From a virus: DNA of 38,180 bases. The position numbers and the translations under genes were made by a program. The DNA is taken from positions 1-38,180 of the IMG/VR virus record IMGVR_UViG_3300044522_000255; one strand, given 5' to 3'. The notes below the pieces were generated by a model. It ran no database searches. It saw nothing but the letters and a program-made list of their open reading frames with translations, and had not been told where the DNA came from. Of this stretch, positions 22,555 to 38,180 are shown in pieces. The first letter of the stretch is position 1, and each line of letters opens with the position of its first letter.

Positions 22555-23283
22555 TTATTTGGTTTTCATTGGCATTATGAGTAACTCAGTGGTGCTGGTT
22601 TGTGTTGTGATTGTGTAGACCACTGGTTTGATTGGGTCGGTGTAGTGGGTTAGTTGTGCTGGTTGCTCGTTTCCGGTGCTGGCCTGTTTGGTGGTTTTGG
22701 CTAGTCTTTCGATTTGCCATTGGGCAAGGCTGAACGGTTGGAATGTGGCCGGTGTTGTGGTTTGTGCTGTTGTCCATATTGCGGCGGTGTTGGGTGTTTC
22801 GTGTTGTGGGTTGTTGCCGGTGTGGGTTTGGCCTGCGCTCGTTGTGAGTGTCCACGCTTCCGGCGTGGCGGTCAATGTGGCTGTGACGGTGCCGGCGTGT
22901 TTGCCGGCTAGTTTTGCTGCTGCTGTGAGTGCTTTGGACACTTCGCTGGCTGGCAGTGTGAACCTGTCCGGTGTTGTTGTGATCTGTTCGCCGGTGGTGT
23001 GTCGTGCTGCTGCGTAACTGTCGCAACACTCGAACGTAAAGCCGGTGATCGTTACTAGTTGTAGAGCCTGCTTCTCGGTGCTGGCGTACGGTGTGACGAT
23101 CGCGAACACTTGCGCAAGGTCTTTTAGTGTGCCAGTGATTTGGCCTAGTTGGGTTTTCTGATCGTTGCTCATTTTGCTGTTCTCCTGTTTTAGTTGGGTT
23201 GTTTCGGGTTCTGGTTTGTGGTGTATGTGCGGCCAACGTGCGTTTATTGCGTCGAGGTCGTTTAGGTGCTGAATTATGCCCAT
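22555..23283 (-). CDS. DNA sliding-clamp-like protein (two-domain)
   Basis: 242 aa from the ATG at 23283, 5 bp after the preceding stop. An internal ATG at 23172 with AGGAGAACAGCAAA gives 205 aa and may be the true start. From residue 47 the order of features is that of beta-clamp domains. A helix LKDLAQVFAIVTPYAS and strands ALQLVTITGFTFECCDSYAAARH are followed by FTLPASEVSKALTAAAK. A second copy is QWQIERLAKTTKQA, then KPVVYTI and the C-terminal LLIMPMKTK, like the (L/V)MPM(R/K) end of DnaN. Bacterial DnaN has three domains; only two fit here. I infer a clamp that could recruit host polymerase or other clamp binders. Last gene of the early operon. Confidence 0.5.
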   Translation of the reverse strand: MGIIQHLNDLDAINARWPHIHHKPEPETTQLKQENSKMSNDQKTQLGQITGTLKDLAQVFAIVTPYASTEKQALQLVTITGFTFECCDSYAAARHTTGEQITTTPDRFTLPASEVSKALTAAAKLAGKHAGTVTATLTATPEAWTLTTSAGQTHTGNNPQHETPNTAAIWTTAQTTTPATFQPFSLAQWQIERLAKTTKQASTGNEQPAQLTHYTDPIKPVVYTITTQTSTTELLIMPMKTK

Positions 23284-26895: not shown

Positions 26896-27024
26896 TTATT
26901 TCGGATAATTTTTTGCCCACACTTCGACAAGCGAACCTAAATAATTGTCGGTGTATTCGGCCAACGGATTATCGCCGGCACGGTAAGGATCGGTGATGTC
27001 AAACAGTGACGGTTGATCGTTCAT
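26896..27024 (-). CDS. Miniprotein (42 aa)
   Basis: MNDQPSLFDITDPYRAGDNP...WAKNYPK, stop TAA at 26896-26898. The ATG overlaps the stop of the winged-helix-like gene as ATGA. The QPSLFD-like start recalls short clamp-binding peptides (QxxLF), which is notable because the phage has a clamp-like protein; binding is untested. Otherwise no family. Confidence 0.55.
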   Translation of the reverse strand: MNDQPSLFDITDPYRAGDNPLAEYTDNYLGSLVEVWAKNYPK

Positions 27025-27344
27025 ACGCGCCGCCAAACACGAACAGGCCGAGCGTGACACGCTACACGCGCCGAAGGTTGGTAAGTGTCGGTAGGGCAGA
27101 TCAGTCCGTCACTGGCAACTTGTCGAAGCACGGCACCTATCGCACGCGGTTCGTGTGGTGTCGGTAGTGCTGCGTTTTCGAGTGCTTGCCAAATGTTGTC
27201 GGTTGTGAAGGTGTCGGTAGTGGTAGCGATTTGTACGATCACGTTGTAGCAGGTTGTGAGCCATGTTTGGTCTGCGTTGGTAGCAACGGTAGCGATTGCC
27301 TGGTTTTTGGCTTCGGTAGCGGCGATGATGTCTAGTAGGTTCAT
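27021..27344 (-). CDS. Winged-helix-like small protein (107 aa)
   Basis: The ATG at 27342-27344 has GGAGAACAA. The C-terminal half (DNIWQALENAALPTPHEPRAIGAVLRQVASDGLICPTDTYQPSARVACHARPVRVWR) has helix-turn-helix spacing and then two strands. It resembles a winged-helix family found in actinobacterial phages and plasmids. A DNA-binding or replication-linked role is inferred; no partner site is known. Confidence 0.6.
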   Translation of the reverse strand: MNLLDIIAATEAKNQAIATVATNADQTWLTTCYNVIVQIATTTDTFTTDNIWQALENAALPTPHEPRAIGAVLRQVASDGLICPTDTYQPSARVACHARPVRVWRRV

Positions 27345-29016: not shown

Positions 29017-29352
29017 TCAGTATTCAGTAATGTTTAACAATTTGATCAAATCTTTTACGGTGAGTACCACGTACTGATCTTCGGCTTTACCATAGCCTCG
29101 CCGTTTGGCAACCACAACCCCAACTTCTGCGTTGGCGTTTATCCGTTCTGTTTCGGCTTCTTTCAACCAGCCAGAGAAGTTTAGGGTGTTGTGGGATTTG
29201 CATTCAAAGACCAGGCGGTTGTCTACACCTGTGATGTCACCTTTGTCGAGCGCACCTTGTAGGGCGCGTCGTTCACAGTTCGGGTAGAACTGTTTAAGGT
29301 AGTCAACGATGAGTGTCTCGAAGGCTGTGCCTTTAGATTTGTTTTTGCTCAC
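29017..29352 (-). CDS. Hjc-like PD-(D/E)xK Holliday junction resolvase
   Basis: 111 aa, GTG start in a GTGA overlap. Catalytic residues of a PD-(D/E)xK fold are visible: E12 in the first helix, D39 in KGDITGV, and E50-x-K52 in LVFECKSH, followed by a helix and the strand VGVVVAKRRG. The family cuts branched DNA. It lies directly downstream of the annealing protein and exonuclease genes and would resolve recombination intermediates before packaging. Confidence 0.75.
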   Translation of the reverse strand: MSKNKSKGTAFETLIVDYLKQFYPNCERRALQGALDKGDITGVDNRLVFECKSHNTLNFSGWLKEAETERINANAEVGVVVAKRRGYGKAEDQYVVLTVKDLIKLLNITEY

Positions 29353-30308
29353 GGGGCAAGGATGCCAATGAGTTCTGATGCCTCTTTTTTGGTTAGATCA
29401 TTAAACGATGTGATGGTTCGTTTTGTGTGATCTGATGCCATTGAGAGTTGGTCTTCTTTGCTGGTGATACCTGCTCCACCACATAACGCACGAAGTTTGC
29501 CTAACTGTGGTGCTGTGGCTGGTGCGCCAGGTTCTTTGATTTGTGGTGTGCCGTTGGCAGGATGATTGCTGCGTGATTCTTCGATCACTTCGGAACCTGC
29601 GAACAGGTCAACCACTTTGGCCAACACGTCACCAACATCCAAGATTTGTTCGTTTGGATCAATTTGGAATGAGTCCACAATTTCAGGTTTGACTACAGGT
29701 TTCGGTGCGTACAACGCTTTCTTGGCTGTGGCATATGCGGCACGTAACAAATCCATATCGGATTCATGCAAGTTGTCTAGGTTGACTCCGGCAGTGTTGG
29801 CAATTTCGCGCCAATCCAAAGCAACCTCTGCACATGCGCCTTTGAACCGTTCAATATTGTCTGCTGACACTGGTGGGTTGCTGGCAAGTGCCACAGGTTT
29901 TGCTTGGGGTACAGGTTTGGTTGTGGCATGAGGGTTGTCATCCCATTCTTGCTTAGTCCACAACGATAGACAGATACCGAATCGCATCGCTGCGTTACGA
30001 AGGAAGTCACCGATCAGTTCTTTGTCTAGTTCTTGTTTGTCTGCACGTACTGAACCAACACCTAAACGGGCTTGTCCAAGAACGGTGAGTTCACCCCACA
30101 TGGTTGCGATGCCGTTCTCAACATGGATTGATGGTCGCCCATTATCCCATGCGATAGGAACCCAACGCCATGTCGGGTCAATCTCCAACAAGATTCGTGT
30201 GATGTCTGCGTGACCCACAAAATCTAGTGAGGTGCCAGCCTTCGGTAGTTTGCCAACAATCTTTGGATCTGGCACACCGTATGCTCCGAGGATTTCTTCA
30301 AGTTTCAT
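29349..30308 (-). CDS. Rad52-like single-strand annealing protein
   Basis: 319 aa. The N-terminal domain has the Rad52/Rad22-like phage words LPKAGTSLDFVGHADITRILLEIDPTWRW (about 19-47), LGQARLGVGS near 77 and LIGDFLRNAAMRFGICLSLWTK near 98. The C-terminal half is a variable linker followed by LGKLRALCGGAGI. It anneals complementary single strands produced by the neighbouring YqaJ-type exonuclease. Overlaps are TAATG upstream and GTGA downstream, so all three recombination genes are one unit. Confidence 0.8.
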   Translation of the reverse strand: MKLEEILGAYGVPDPKIVGKLPKAGTSLDFVGHADITRILLEIDPTWRWVPIAWDNGRPSIHVENGIATMWGELTVLGQARLGVGSVRADKQELDKELIGDFLRNAAMRFGICLSLWTKQEWDDNPHATTKPVPQAKPVALASNPPVSADNIERFKGACAEVALDWREIANTAGVNLDNLHESDMDLLRAAYATAKKALYAPKPVVKPEIVDSFQIDPNEQILDVGDVLAKVVDLFAGSEVIEESRSNHPANGTPQIKEPGAPATAPQLGKLRALCGGAGITSKEDQLSMASDHTKRTITSFNDLTKKEASELIGILAP

Positions 30309-31258
30309 TATTTGCTCTCCTTTGCTGTGATCCGCATAGTGCGGAAGGTTGATGTTTTCTTAAACTTTGCGTGTAATGCTGGATGTTCTTTCTCAAACTG
30401 TTTCGCATCAAACGATGTACGTGACGAGTTCTTCCAGGTAATAACTTGCACCCCGTCAATTGATCCGTACTCTGCGTCACCGAGCAGCATCCCCAACTCA
30501 CCTTGCAACTGATCGCGTACTGCTTCAGCAGATTTGATTTGTTCTTTAGCAATAGACAAACGCTCTAAAGTGTTGTATACCTCATGGCCCAAGACAACAG
30601 TGTTCTCATATCCTTCGGGGTACAAAGCCGAAGCGTTGTCGTAGGTGGGGTCAGCACCTTCCGGCATCATCCCCATGTCAATGAACCCCAAGAATTTGCG
30701 TACTGCGTCTATGTGTTGTTGGCGTTCGTCGGATGTGACGGTTTGTGTGTGGAATTGCAGTTGAAGATCGGAGTCAAAAACGATCCATGTGATTTCGTTT
30801 GTATCAGCGCAGATCGCTTGTTGTACTCCTTGCCATTTCCAATATGGGGGGAGTTGACCGTTCCACCTTTTGTTATAGGTTTTCAGTTCATAGATTTTTC
30901 CTGACAAATCTTTGCCATCCAATGTTGCCATCAGACGTACACCTTCTTCTTCGTAGCAGTACAAGTCTTGTGGTTCGCTGATGGTGACGTTCAAGATTTC
31001 TGATGCCCACAACATGAGTGGTCCTTCAAGGATTGTTCCTCGACGCATCGCATCGTTTTGTTCTTTCGGCACGGGGGGTGTCTTGGCCAAGAGTTCTACT
31101 GCGAGGTCTGCTGGTGTGGTGAATCGGTGTTCGTTGTGAACAACGGCGGCCACGGATGCTGTGATCCGTGCTAGACCTTCATCGTTTTTCCATCGTGCGT
31201 TCAACCATTCCTGGCTGCCGTGTGGTGGCTTGGGTATTGTGTATCCGTGCTTAATCAT
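30308..31258 (-). CDS. YqaJ-type recombination exonuclease
   Basis: 316 aa with the lambda-exonuclease fold. The YqaJ opening GSQEWLNARW (14-23) with ARITAS is followed by catalytic E78 (RGTILEG), D114 (MATLDGK) and E124-x-K126 (YELKTYNK). It digests one strand of double-stranded DNA to feed the Rad52-like partner. A GGAG-AAACG ribosome site precedes the ATG, after the promoter-like sequence at 31289-31317. Confidence 0.85.
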   Translation of the reverse strand: MIKHGYTIPKPPHGSQEWLNARWKNDEGLARITASVAAVVHNEHRFTTPADLAVELLAKTPPVPKEQNDAMRRGTILEGPLMLWASEILNVTISEPQDLYCYEEEGVRLMATLDGKDLSGKIYELKTYNKRWNGQLPPYWKWQGVQQAICADTNEITWIVFDSDLQLQFHTQTVTSDERQQHIDAVRKFLGFIDMGMMPEGADPTYDNASALYPEGYENTVVLGHEVYNTLERLSIAKEQIKSAEAVRDQLQGELGMLLGDAEYGSIDGVQVITWKNSSRTSFDAKQFEKEHPALHAKFKKTSTFRTMRITAKESK

Positions 31259-34464: not shown

Positions 34465-34992
34465 TCATACGGCTTTCGCAGCAACGAAGGCTGCAACCGC
34501 TGGTGGGACTTGGTTTCCTTGGGTGTAGCGGATGTGCCACGGTTCAGATTGGACTTCGTGTGAGAAGCCAAATAGGTGTTCGTTGTCTAGCATCCATTTG
34601 AGTCTAGGGCCTGATGCTGTAGCCACATCAACAGCAATCCCCATGTTGTGTTGCGATTTTCCTGGTGTTGCCAAACATGCCATACCTTTTTTTAGGTACC
34701 ACTTCTTGCCTTCAAAGGTGCGTGTGTCAGGGTTGCCTGTTGGTTCCAGTTGGTACCGTTGAAAGAACGCTTTGGTTTGGGATTCGAGTGTGCGATATGT
34801 GTCGCCTGCTGATGTTGGTGTCAGTTTGATACCAGCCTTTTGTGCGGCATCTACCATCGCTTCCCATGCGTCAGCAGCACAATGGTGGAGTGTGCCACCA
34901 ACAGTTTTGCGTAACTGGTCAGCAGTAAGTTTGCCTGGGACAGCGTTCTTTAGGTGGTCACAAAGTTTGACCGGCACAACTGGATACGCCAC
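34465..34992 (-). CDS. Endolysin, M15 family D,D-peptidase
   Basis: 175 aa with a GTG start. The zinc site is H115, D122 (SQHNMGIAVDV) and H153, with the general base E150 in EPWHIRY, the VanY/M15B pattern. R67 in DTYRTLESQ contacts substrate in this family. The N-terminal 40 residues hold a short helical segment. No signal peptide, so it depends on a holin. It would cut peptide bonds in the host murein. Membrane proteins lie on both sides. Confidence 0.88.
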   Translation of the reverse strand: MAYPVVPVKLCDHLKNAVPGKLTADQLRKTVGGTLHHCAADAWEAMVDAAQKAGIKLTPTSAGDTYRTLESQTKAFFQRYQLEPTGNPDTRTFEGKKWYLKKGMACLATPGKSQHNMGIAVDVATASGPRLKWMLDNEHLFGFSHEVQSEPWHIRYTQGNQVPPAVAAFVAAKAV

Positions 34993-35553: not shown

Positions 35554-35717
35554 TCTGATTCCTTTGTGCTGAGAGTTAATGCTGCGTGTAACACTAATGA
35601 TACACCAACCACCCAGATCGCTTGCCGGAGTGTTGGCCCTGACAGGGTGATGAGGACTAGTCCCGTGCCTGCGTATGTCCAGGCGTTGTCTTTGATGAGG
35701 TTGGAGAGGCGTTTCAT
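35550..35717 (-). CDS. Second small membrane protein (55 aa)
   Basis: MKRLSNLIKDNAWTY, then TGLVLITLSG and IWVVGVSLVLHAALTLS: two short hydrophobic stretches. ATGA overlap with the holin candidate gene. Two adjacent membrane proteins before an endolysin often act as holin and antiholin; here that is an inference. Confidence 0.65.
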   Translation of the reverse strand: MKRLSNLIKDNAWTYAGTGLVLITLSGPTLRQAIWVVGVSLVLHAALTLSTKESE

Positions 35718-37069
35718 TATCGTCTTATTCTAGTTGATGCCGCTGTGAGGGTTGCTCCTGCTGCGATGGCGATGAGGGTTCGTCGTTCTCCTACAGGAAT
35801 GTTTGATCCTGTTGGTACGTAGTCGTCAAATCCGCCGAAGATGTCTATGGTTGATTCGAAGGCTTCCTGAACGGCGATAGGGGCGTTTTGGATTGCTTCT
35901 GTGAGTTCGGCTATTTGGGTGTCGTCTAGTTGTTGGACTTCGATGGTTTCAAAGATTTCTGTGGCTTGTTCTTCGGTGATGACCGCCAACACGTCAGGGT
36001 TGGTGGCGAGTTCTTCGGCTTGGTCGGCTGTTACTTCGGTGTTGAGGAGTTGTTCGATGAGGGCTACGGCTTCTTCTTCGTTGAGGTCGCCGAGTGCTTC
36101 TATGGCTGTGTCGAATTGTTCTTCGGTGAGTGGTTCGCCACTGTCCACAGCGTCTAGGAGGGCTTCTACTAGTTCGGCTGGTATTTCTTCGGTTACATCT
36201 ATTGGGAGCGTCTCAGGCGTTTCTGGTGCGTCTGGCAGGGTGTCTGGTGGCAGGGTGTCAGGCACCGTGGTATCAGGAACGGTGGTGTCGGGGATGGTGG
36301 TGTCAGGTACGGTCGTGTCAGGAACCGTCGTTTTAGGTACAGTGGTATCAGGTACGGTTGTGACTACAACTGGTGGGATTGTGTCCACAAGAGGAGGAGC
36401 GTCTGATGTTTCACTGGATACTAGTGGTGGGGTGCTTGTTGTCGTCGGCAATTCTGTCGTTGCTGACTCTGGGATTGTTTCTTCTGTTGTCGTTGGGGTC
36501 AGACTCGTAGTTGTTTGAAGTGTCGTAGTAGTCAATTCTTCTTCCACAGGAACAGTCGTGGAGGGTGCAATAGTAGAAGTGGTCGTCGTTGTAGTCGTGG
36601 ATGTTGTTGTGGTGTCCCATAAAGAAAGATTAGCAATAGACAGATGACCAGGCTGGCAACAGGTATCTATCGAATATTGACGGAACGTAAAAATGTCGCC
36701 TTCAACCACAGGTACAGACATAGTTCCTGACGAAGTGTTGACTTGTGTAATCAACGTGTACACCCCATTGACACCGTACTGTGGCGGGTCATACACCCAA
36801 CCATCATTGGTTTGATATGACCAATCAAAGTCAACTGTGTTCACATCAGCAGGCACAACCGTTTCAATTTGCACCCAATGCGCCCCACCACTACAACCGT
36901 TATAGTCGGGACCATGCAAAGTGATGATGTTCTCAACTACTTCTATTGAGCCACCACAATCTTGTGACTGACTGTAGGTCCAATCACCTAGAAAATCTGC
37001 TTTAGCAGATGGTGCGAACAACGCCAAAAATGCTACAGGGGCAAAGATTAGCCAACGAGTATTACGCAC
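35717..37069 (-). CDS. Secreted, Thr/Pro-rich, membrane-anchored surface protein
   Basis: 450 aa from the GTG at 37069; an ATG 27 codons upstream would overlap the previous gene in another frame. Signal peptide 1-24 (RWLIFAPVAFLALFAPSAKA). A beta domain with five Cys follows (25-150). Next come a mucin-like Thr linker (152-215), about seven pentapeptides of the form T[VI]P[DK]T near 238-275, and an acidic helical region with repeated EEQ/ADQA words (290-410). The C-terminus YVPTGSNIPVGERRTLIAIAAGATL plus RIRR is a membrane anchor or sorting-like tail. Similar layouts occur in secreted proteins of aquatic Actinobacteria. Role unknown; host-surface remodelling is possible. Confidence 0.65.
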   Translation of the reverse strand: MRNTRWLIFAPVAFLALFAPSAKADFLGDWTYSQSQDCGGSIEVVENIITLHGPDYNGCSGGAHWVQIETVVPADVNTVDFDWSYQTNDGWVYDPPQYGVNGVYTLITQVNTSSGTMSVPVVEGDIFTFRQYSIDTCCQPGHLSIANLSLWDTTTTSTTTTTTTSTIAPSTTVPVEEELTTTTLQTTTSLTPTTTEETIPESATTELPTTTSTPPLVSSETSDAPPLVDTIPPVVVTTVPDTTVPKTTVPDTTVPDTTIPDTTVPDTTVPDTLPPDTLPDAPETPETLPIDVTEEIPAELVEALLDAVDSGEPLTEEQFDTAIEALGDLNEEEAVALIEQLLNTEVTADQAEELATNPDVLAVITEEQATEIFETIEVQQLDDTQIAELTEAIQNAPIAVQEAFESTIDIFGGFDDYVPTGSNIPVGERRTLIAIAAGATLTAASTRIRR

Positions 37070-37070
37070 A

Positions 37071-37247
37071 TCAGGCTTCAGGCTTCCATTCGGTAGCCGT
37101 GTTACCTTCAGCAACCCACGCATCATAAGCAGGCTTGTTCGGGTTGTCATCTGTTAAATGAAACGAACGCACTCCACCATCAGATAATGGTTGCAAAATG
37201 TGGCGTTGGACTTTACCAAATACTTCAGTATCAAAATAGTAAAACAT
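37071..37247 (-). CDS. Short post-fibre protein (58 aa)
   Basis: MFYYFDTEVFGKVQRHILQPLSDGG...PAYDAWVAEGNTATEWKPEA. Starts 2 bp after the tail-fibre stop. The YDAWVAEGNT end resembles small proteins encoded just after phage tail fibres, possibly assembly helpers. The stop lies 1 bp before the surface-protein GTG. Confidence 0.6.
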   Translation of the reverse strand: MFYYFDTEVFGKVQRHILQPLSDGGVRSFHLTDDNPNKPAYDAWVAEGNTATEWKPEA

Positions 37248-37249
37248 TA

Positions 37250-38180
37250 CTATGACAACTCCGCACTAAAACCGAGATAGCCAGTTGAAGTCACTGCTTT
37301 TACAACATTTGCACCACCTACAACGAATACTGCGCTTCCGTGAGTGTAGCGAATACCTGCTGAATCATCTTCGGCTTGAATTAGAGCAACAGTTCCACCA
37401 GAATAATCTAGCGCAGTAGAGAACTGATACACGCCAATGTTTGCACTATCAAGCGCAGTGACAGCACTTCTCATAGTTGTAGGAAAGCGAATAAATGTTT
37501 CAGCCAAAGTGCTTGCAGCACCTGCCCCAATATTAAATGAGTTACCTGCAGCATTTGTGGTGCGATAATAATACCGTTGGCATTTAGCCAATGTTGTGCC
37601 GTAGTCCTCAAACTCAAATGGTGTAGCAACAGAACCAACCTCAAGTTGCACACCAGTTATCTGCCAATAGTTGCTTGTCGCAGCAGCAAGGTTTGTTTGA
37701 CCTGCAGCACGATTAGCACTGGTATTAGTTTGCCAAGTGGTTGCCAAAGTACCTGAACTAAAATTACTTCCAGCCGCTAACCAAAATTGAATATCCAAAG
37801 AACGGTTTTCATCGTTATCAAAAGCACCAGTAGTGTCAGCAGGAAAAGTTATGGTTTTCTTTTCCCAAGTTCCTGAAACAGATACCGTATAGGATTTGGA
37901 AACAATACGAGTGTTATCAACATCAAATAAAGCAGCGATATATGTTCCCGTAACATTTGATTTAACCCAAAAACTTAAAGTTAATTCTTTAGCAGAAGCC
38001 GTACCTTTAAGTATCGTTTGAAGATTTTGGCCTTCTAGCCTTGTTTGTGTAATCATGTAGTCACCGGCAGAAGGTGAGGCATCAGCAGTGGTGCATAACC
38101 ATTTCCAAGATTTTTTAAAACCTGAACCTGTTGGCGCATCCGTTGTTTCAACAGAATTAGTCCAAGTACCTAAAGTTCCA
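37250..38180 (-). CDS. Tail fibre protein, C-terminal part (continues at base 1)
   Basis: The frame is open at the window edge and joins the 1-896 part. Total length is about 544 aa after merging the repeat. This part holds a carbohydrate-binding-like domain: GTWTNSVETTDAPTGSGF, ELTLSFWVKSNVTGTY, WEKKTITFPADTTGAF, then WQITGVQLEVGSVATPFE and CQRYYYRT. It is a beta-sandwich I know from fibres of aquatic phages, probably receptor-binding. The ATG at 38056 is internal; upstream codons read GTLGTW...SAGDY in frame. Confidence 0.88.
   Translation of the reverse strand, partial: GTLGTWTNSVETTDAPTGSGFKKSWKWLCTTADASPSAGDYMITQTRLEGQNLQTILKGTASAKELTLSFWVKSNVTGTYIAALFDVDNTRIVSKSYTVSVSGTWEKKTITFPADTTGAFDNDENRSLDIQFWLAAGSNFSSGTLATTWQTNTSANRAAGQTNLAAATSNYWQITGVQLEVGSVATPFEFEDYGTTLAKCQRYYYRTTNAAGNSFNIGAGAASTLAETFIRFPTTMRSAVTALDSANIGVYQFSTALDYSGGTVALIQAEDDSAGIRYTHGSAVFVVGGANVVKAVTSTGYLGFSAELS
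37989..38180. repeat. Terminal direct repeat, right copy
   Basis: Second copy of bases 1-192, differing only at 38053 (T for C at 65). Confidence 0.95.

Follow-up and report, generated by a model that had tools for sequence, protein, structure and literature searches.

Sliding clamps hold DNA polymerases on DNA, and the textbook form of a clamp is a closed ring. The locus analyzed here encodes a predicted clamp relative from a family that keeps the segments forming the partner-binding pocket and drops both of the surfaces that close the ring, and it raises the question of what function a clamp can have when the standard ring is lacking. The DNA, IMG/VR virus record IMGVR_UViG_3300044522_000255 (38,180 bases, 48% G+C), is called the window here. 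The open reading frame (ORF) at 22555-23283 had been described from its letters as a two-domain, DnaN-like clamp in a phage without a polymerase. Its product, designated the mini-clamp, bears on how small polymerase-less phages steer the host replicase.

The ORF was present on the minus strand, with 242 codons and the C-terminal end ...KPVVYTITTQTSTTELLIMPMKTK. Homologues begin at the position of its Met38, with the N-termini MSNDQKTQ..., METTTTQ... or MNTTTQ..., and no sequence upstream of Met38 was common to them. The gene was therefore taken to run from 23172 to 22555 and to encode 205 aa, which correspond to the residues 38-242 named in the original prediction. The features of the locus are listed in Table 1.

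Table 1. Mini-clamp gene, its clamp-related segments and neighbouring genes in the window.
Feature	Position	Strand	Basis
Mini-clamp gene (205 aa; begins at ORF residue Met38)	22555..23172	-	Homologue starts; AF2; DnaN fold match
DnaN domain 2 equivalent (residues 9-128; sub-motifs 2A + 2B)	22789..23148	-	hhalign to DnaN 129-252
DnaN half-domain 3B equivalent (residues 146-203), ends LLIMPMK	22564..22737	-	Relatives' hhalign to DnaN about 315-366
Pocket segment CDSYAA, residues 50-55 (E. coli beta T172-L177)	23008..23025	-	Alignment; PMC11139829 residue list
Pocket segment P127...I132 (beta P242, V247)	22777..22794	-	P in 33/34, I/L/V in 34/34 family members
Pocket segment L198-I-M200-P201-M202 (beta V360, M362, P363)	22567..22581	-	Alignment
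42-aa protein MNDQPSLFD..., candidate clamp-binding partner	26896..27024	-	N-terminal motif conservation; co-occurrence
QPSLF motif, residues 4-8, resembles DnaN clamp-binding QxxLF	27001..27015	-	Homologue conservation
107-aa protein tracking the clamp, winged-helix-like by eye	27021..27344	-	18/20 clamp-positive vs 0/37 clamp-negative loci
Single-strand annealing protein (recombination context)	29349..30308	-	phrog_3290, E 1e-48
RecE-like / YqaJ exonuclease (recombination context)	30308..31258	-	phrog_434, E 4e-50; PF09588, E 3.5e-5

Direct sequence searches of Pfam, PHROG and the PDB with the window protein returned nothing relevant. Close relatives with 50-85% identity came from viral contigs, and 80 terminase-neighbour loci, searched iteratively with HMMs, added diverged members. 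The diverged members matched phrog_947 ("DNA polymerase processivity factor") and phrog_3007. The best of them, L047, missed the Pfam cut-off for the DnaN central domain PF02767 (23.4 bits vs 27), and a DnaN-profile search found it at E 2.6e-8, aligned from about DnaN residue 125 on. In profile-profile comparison with nine DnaN proteins, the whole family scored 94.9% (E 4.7e-8), and 20 column-shuffled controls reached at most 0.5%. The score was 97.5% when the window clade was removed from the family, and a non-significant 3% for the window clade alone; this clade matched the rest of the family at 99.9% over the full length. These results indicate that the window protein can be assigned firmly to DnaN only by way of its relatives and the predicted fold. 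A cellular copy of the clamp was not found in one scan of genome contigs.

The original prediction had named, among its checks, a structure model of residues 38-242 as a monomer. AlphaFold2 (AF2) was run with 52 aligned sequences, an input that includes the diverged relatives carrying the DnaN link, and it returned a clamp fold with pLDDT 91.2 and pTM 0.88; all five models were near 90. An earlier run with 14 close relatives only gave pLDDT 46 and was not used. The top PDB matches in Foldseek were DnaN clamps, with probability 1.00. In VIA-align, residues 8-205 of the model aligned with E. coli DnaN 124-366 at Z 16-17 and an rmsd of 2.5 A over 175-180 of the 205 residues. Taken together, the profiles and the model make it nearly certain, in fold and homology, that the mini-clamp is a diverged, DnaN-derived clamp relative, and the DnaN resemblance noticed originally is borne out.

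The proposal of two full domains did not hold. The AF2 model has three helix-strand clamp sub-motifs, not four. In the domain 2 region it shows strand 10-15, helix 16-29 and strand 39-60, followed by strand 71-74, helix 75-95 and strand 97-120; in the 3B region, helix 151-164 is followed by strands to residue 199. With hhalign, DnaN domain 2 ran straight into GFN..YL of half-domain 3B and half-domain 3A was skipped. The sequence alignment thus covers DnaN from about 131 to 367 without domain 1 and without 3A, in a chain of 205 aa against about 366 aa. From the sub-motif count and the alignment gap at 3A, we concluded that the chain consists of domain 2 plus 3B, that is, one and a half domains. 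A split clamp with domain 1 encoded elsewhere was rejected: no other window ORF matched the DnaN profile, and among the tested genes only the 42-aa and 107-aa genes of Table 1 tracked the clamp.

The analogy originally drawn with trimeric PCNA and T4 gp45 finds no support in the same evidence. PCNA chains do align over residues 9-205 of the model with Z about 14, and T4 gp45, at roughly 228 aa, is near the mini-clamp in length. However, DnaN is the better structural match, and three chains of this architecture would bring 9 motifs to a ring, not 12. We therefore regard a true two-domain clamp of the PCNA/gp45 trimer type as highly improbable.

No polymerase, primase, clamp loader or helicase was recognisable among the 30 larger window proteins scanned against PHROGs, in agreement with the original prediction; the Pfam scan covered about 20 proteins. 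ORFs 3-896 and 37250-38179, both on the minus strand at the contig ends, match consecutive parts of the tail-fibre family phrog_4492 and fuse in frame. Because these ends join, the record probably represents a whole circular genome, which makes the absence of a polymerase and a helicase meaningful. The terminase matches those of T7-like and Streptomyces phages. Genes for a single-strand annealing protein and two exonucleases are also present, and the annealing protein occurs in relatives both with and without the clamp. A 477-aa protein (35717-37150, minus strand) is rich in Thr and Pro, contains TTVPD repeats and a hydrophobic stretch at its N-terminal end, and had no family match in PHROGs or Pfam. 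It was considered as a hidden helicase and rejected on this composition and the absence of a Walker A motif. A VanY-type D-alanyl-D-alanine carboxypeptidase at 34465-34992 (minus strand; PF02557, E 3e-16) is a probable endolysin.

In bacterial DnaN, the dimer interface joins a face bearing Ile78 and Phe106 to a face bearing Ile272 and Leu273, and the peptide pocket is built from domain 2 and 3B residues (PMC11139829). Both interface segments are missing from the mini-clamp, and the pocket-bearing segments of domain 2 and 3B are present. In the window protein, the pocket positions L155, P242, V247, V360, M362 and P363 are kept as L37, P127, I132, L198, M200 and P201. The V360 position is L, I or M in 34 of 34 family members, and the M362 position is invariant. 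Pocket columns were more conserved than other columns (0.60 vs 0.44, permutation p 0.0007). Four positions changed in the window protein (T172 to Cys, H175 to Tyr, N320 to Ala and Y323 to Gln), so that in the window clade subsite II, which binds Gln, may differ; N320 and Y323 are retained in about half of the family. The helices that would line the DNA channel carry a mean net charge of +3.3, against -4.3 for the remainder of the protein, and basic residues on them are conserved (R156 in 34/34, K87 in 32/34 members). This charge distribution argues for DNA contact by the inner helices.

A pocket retained on a chain without interface surfaces could also suit a protein that acts against the host. 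The mini-clamp might be a non-ring monomer or dimer whose pocket sequesters host clamp-binding proteins (Pol III alpha, loader delta, repair proteins) and stops host replication, with the 42-aa protein, whose QPxLF motif is described below, protecting or regulating that pocket. Both halves of the dimer interface lie in the missing parts and the pocket positions are conserved, as such a decoy would have them. A monomeric beta mutant still binds DNA, binds delta about 50-fold more tightly and is not processive, and this behaviour keeps the explanation alive. The annotated mycobacteriophage clamp Adephagia gp35 is toxic in M. smegmatis, but its gene, at 1,209 bases, is too long for a short clamp. 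Moreover, the conserved basic residues of the inner helices would be purposeless in a pure decoy, and a phage without a recognisable polymerase needs the host replicase, so that sequestering its partners seems costly. On this evidence, we consider the sequestering role unlikely and favour a clamp relative that works on DNA.

We next turn to a candidate ligand of the pocket. The original prediction had pointed to a clamp-binding-like QPSLFD peptide in a 42-aa protein; the peptide is present, and its case was strengthened by conservation and co-occurrence. Homologues of the 42-aa protein occur in clamp-bearing loci, and 27 of 28 distinct ones begin with M/V-x-x-QPxLF, the exception being MNEHTLF. 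Among 50 motif-bearing copies, the seven codons from the Gln onward were spelled in 21 ways and always read QP[S/E]LF[D/E]. Loose motif matches in the window proteome were no more frequent than chance (3 seen vs 2.45 expected), and the QPxLF motif therefore counts only through its conservation. The peptide MNDQPSLFDITDP is the candidate clamp ligand from this protein. A QMNLLD sequence in a 120-aa ORF was rejected as a second clamp-binding motif, as its Gln precedes the conserved start Met.

Co-occurrence was examined in 57 terminase-neighbour loci whose sequence reached far enough upstream of the terminase. The clamp and the QPxLF protein were found together in 20 loci, neither was found in 37, and neither gene was ever found alone (0/57). 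One of the 20 co-occurrences, in locus L070, rests on a weak QPxLF match; at about 648-690 of that locus, the sequence MNTQESLFGK in another frame may be a substitute clamp-binding motif. In the clade of L049, L052 and L054-L056, the mini-clamp gene lies on the strand opposite the terminase and the QPxLF gene is still present. Most flanking genes were patchy; the annealing protein, for example, was found in 16 of the 20 clamp-positive and 28 of the 37 clamp-negative loci. A cytosine methyltransferase was rejected as a replacement for the clamp in clamp-negative phages, as it occurred in both groups (10/20 and 16/37). The 107-aa gene co-occurs with the clamp almost as well as the QPxLF gene does (Table 1), and the linkage may therefore belong to a three-gene module that includes it. 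Homologues of the 107-aa protein are found in Streptomyces phages, and its PHROG families are of unknown function. Mapped onto the terminase tree, the presence or absence of the clamp switches at least 7 times, five of them on well-supported branches. Of these five independent contrasts, four were concordant, none was discordant and one was undecided (p 0.125). The linkage of the clamp and the QPxLF protein is thus striking, and after correction for the tree it is not statistically decisive.

The QPxLF motif would also fit the DnaN pocket of the host, whose binding consensus is QLxLF (QPLLI in MutL), and other phages make clamp-targeting proteins, such as Twort gp168. The 42-aa protein might thus act on the host clamp and leave the mini-clamp to another task, for example replacing a host clamp poisoned by QPxLF. 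A host target alone, however, predicts that the QPxLF protein would occur in clamp-less relatives, and it was absent from 37 of the 37 examined. We consider this explanation quite unlikely, and take the mini-clamp itself as the probable target.

The retention of the pocket together with the basic inner face suggests a platform on DNA. We propose, with a probability of about 60%, that the mini-clamp is a reduced DnaN-type clamp that serves as a DNA-associated platform for clamp-motif proteins. The protein keeps the basic helices of the inner face and the hydrophobic pocket where domains 2 and 3 meet, and lacks domain 1 and 3A, which carry the DnaN dimer-interface surfaces that close the ring. 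The pocket would grip proteins with clamp motifs, and the mini-clamp would hold them on phage DNA. The 42-aa QPxLF protein would be the dedicated phage ligand of this pocket, and the host replicase would perhaps be a further client. We infer from these features that QPxLF binds the mini-clamp pocket, that the mini-clamp sits on DNA and that its role is in the replication or recombination of the phage. With three half-domains per chain, a 12-motif ring could in principle form as a tetramer, or 3B could pair with itself. Tentatively, and with more doubt than confidence, we also suggest that the mini-clamp represents a separate class of phage clamp. The half-domains would join through a new interface into a DNA-encircling or C-shaped platform, and the QPxLF ligand would act in place of the host loader or jointly with it.

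Short DnaN-like clamps were also found in cultured phages (phrog_3007), including KMB41, fFiEco03, Serratia phage Eta, ST1UNAM and Shewanella phage 1/41. The KMB41 protein matched 236 phage records, and E. coli DnaN as a query retrieved short phage clamps aligned from residue 136 onward. Scanning viral contigs brought up 431 encoded relatives; 80 of these were retrieved. This family is widespread among phages, and its database labels vary between "DNA polymerase III beta subunit", "sliding clamp" and "RusA-like Holliday junction resolvase". The last is attached to short clamps in PHROGs (phrog_3007 and phrog_12598) and in many public phage records, such as NC_048113.1 and NC_054641.1. Pfam scans of the window protein and its relatives gave no RusA match, and the window model is a clamp; the RusA-like label is probably misleading for short clamps, as neither Pfam nor the fold supports it for the members tested. 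The window protein at 29017-29352 (minus strand) is called RusA-like through phrog_244 (5e-29), and Pfam gives only PDDEXK_15, below the cut-off; this label may be another mix-up. A limited search of the open-access literature found no paper on the short-clamp architecture.

The phrog_3007 clamps, like the mini-clamp, consist of domain 2 and 3B (173-206 aa), and their family profiles align at 95.2-97.4%. They match the window's relatives L047, L048 and L050 over nearly the full length at E 6e-16 to 8e-18. The one-and-a-half-domain layout, a length of about 170-215 aa and the full-length alignment to the phrog_3007 type were thus found via relatives, and the window protein alone had no PHROG match. 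Compared with the window protein, they share about 7-13% identity and have the pocket sequence TDGHR in place of CDSYA. In the surrounding 4 kb or so of these enterobacterial-type clamps, no protein with an N-terminal QxxLF motif was detected. Two BFVD models from uncultured Caudovirales phages, A0A6J5NB57 and A0A6J5S145 (202 aa), have the same length as the mini-clamp and a TM-score of 0.67-0.73 in both directions, with 15% identity; one of the two carries the annotation "DNA polymerase III, beta chain, central". PCNA and T4 gp45 share the clamp fold distantly but are trimers of two full domains; the absence of gp45 from the structural-match list does not exclude likeness. Bacterial DnaN shares with the mini-clamp the fold, the position of the pocket and the C-terminal MPxR/K, whereas its domain 1, half-domain 3A and known dimer interface are all missing from the phage protein.
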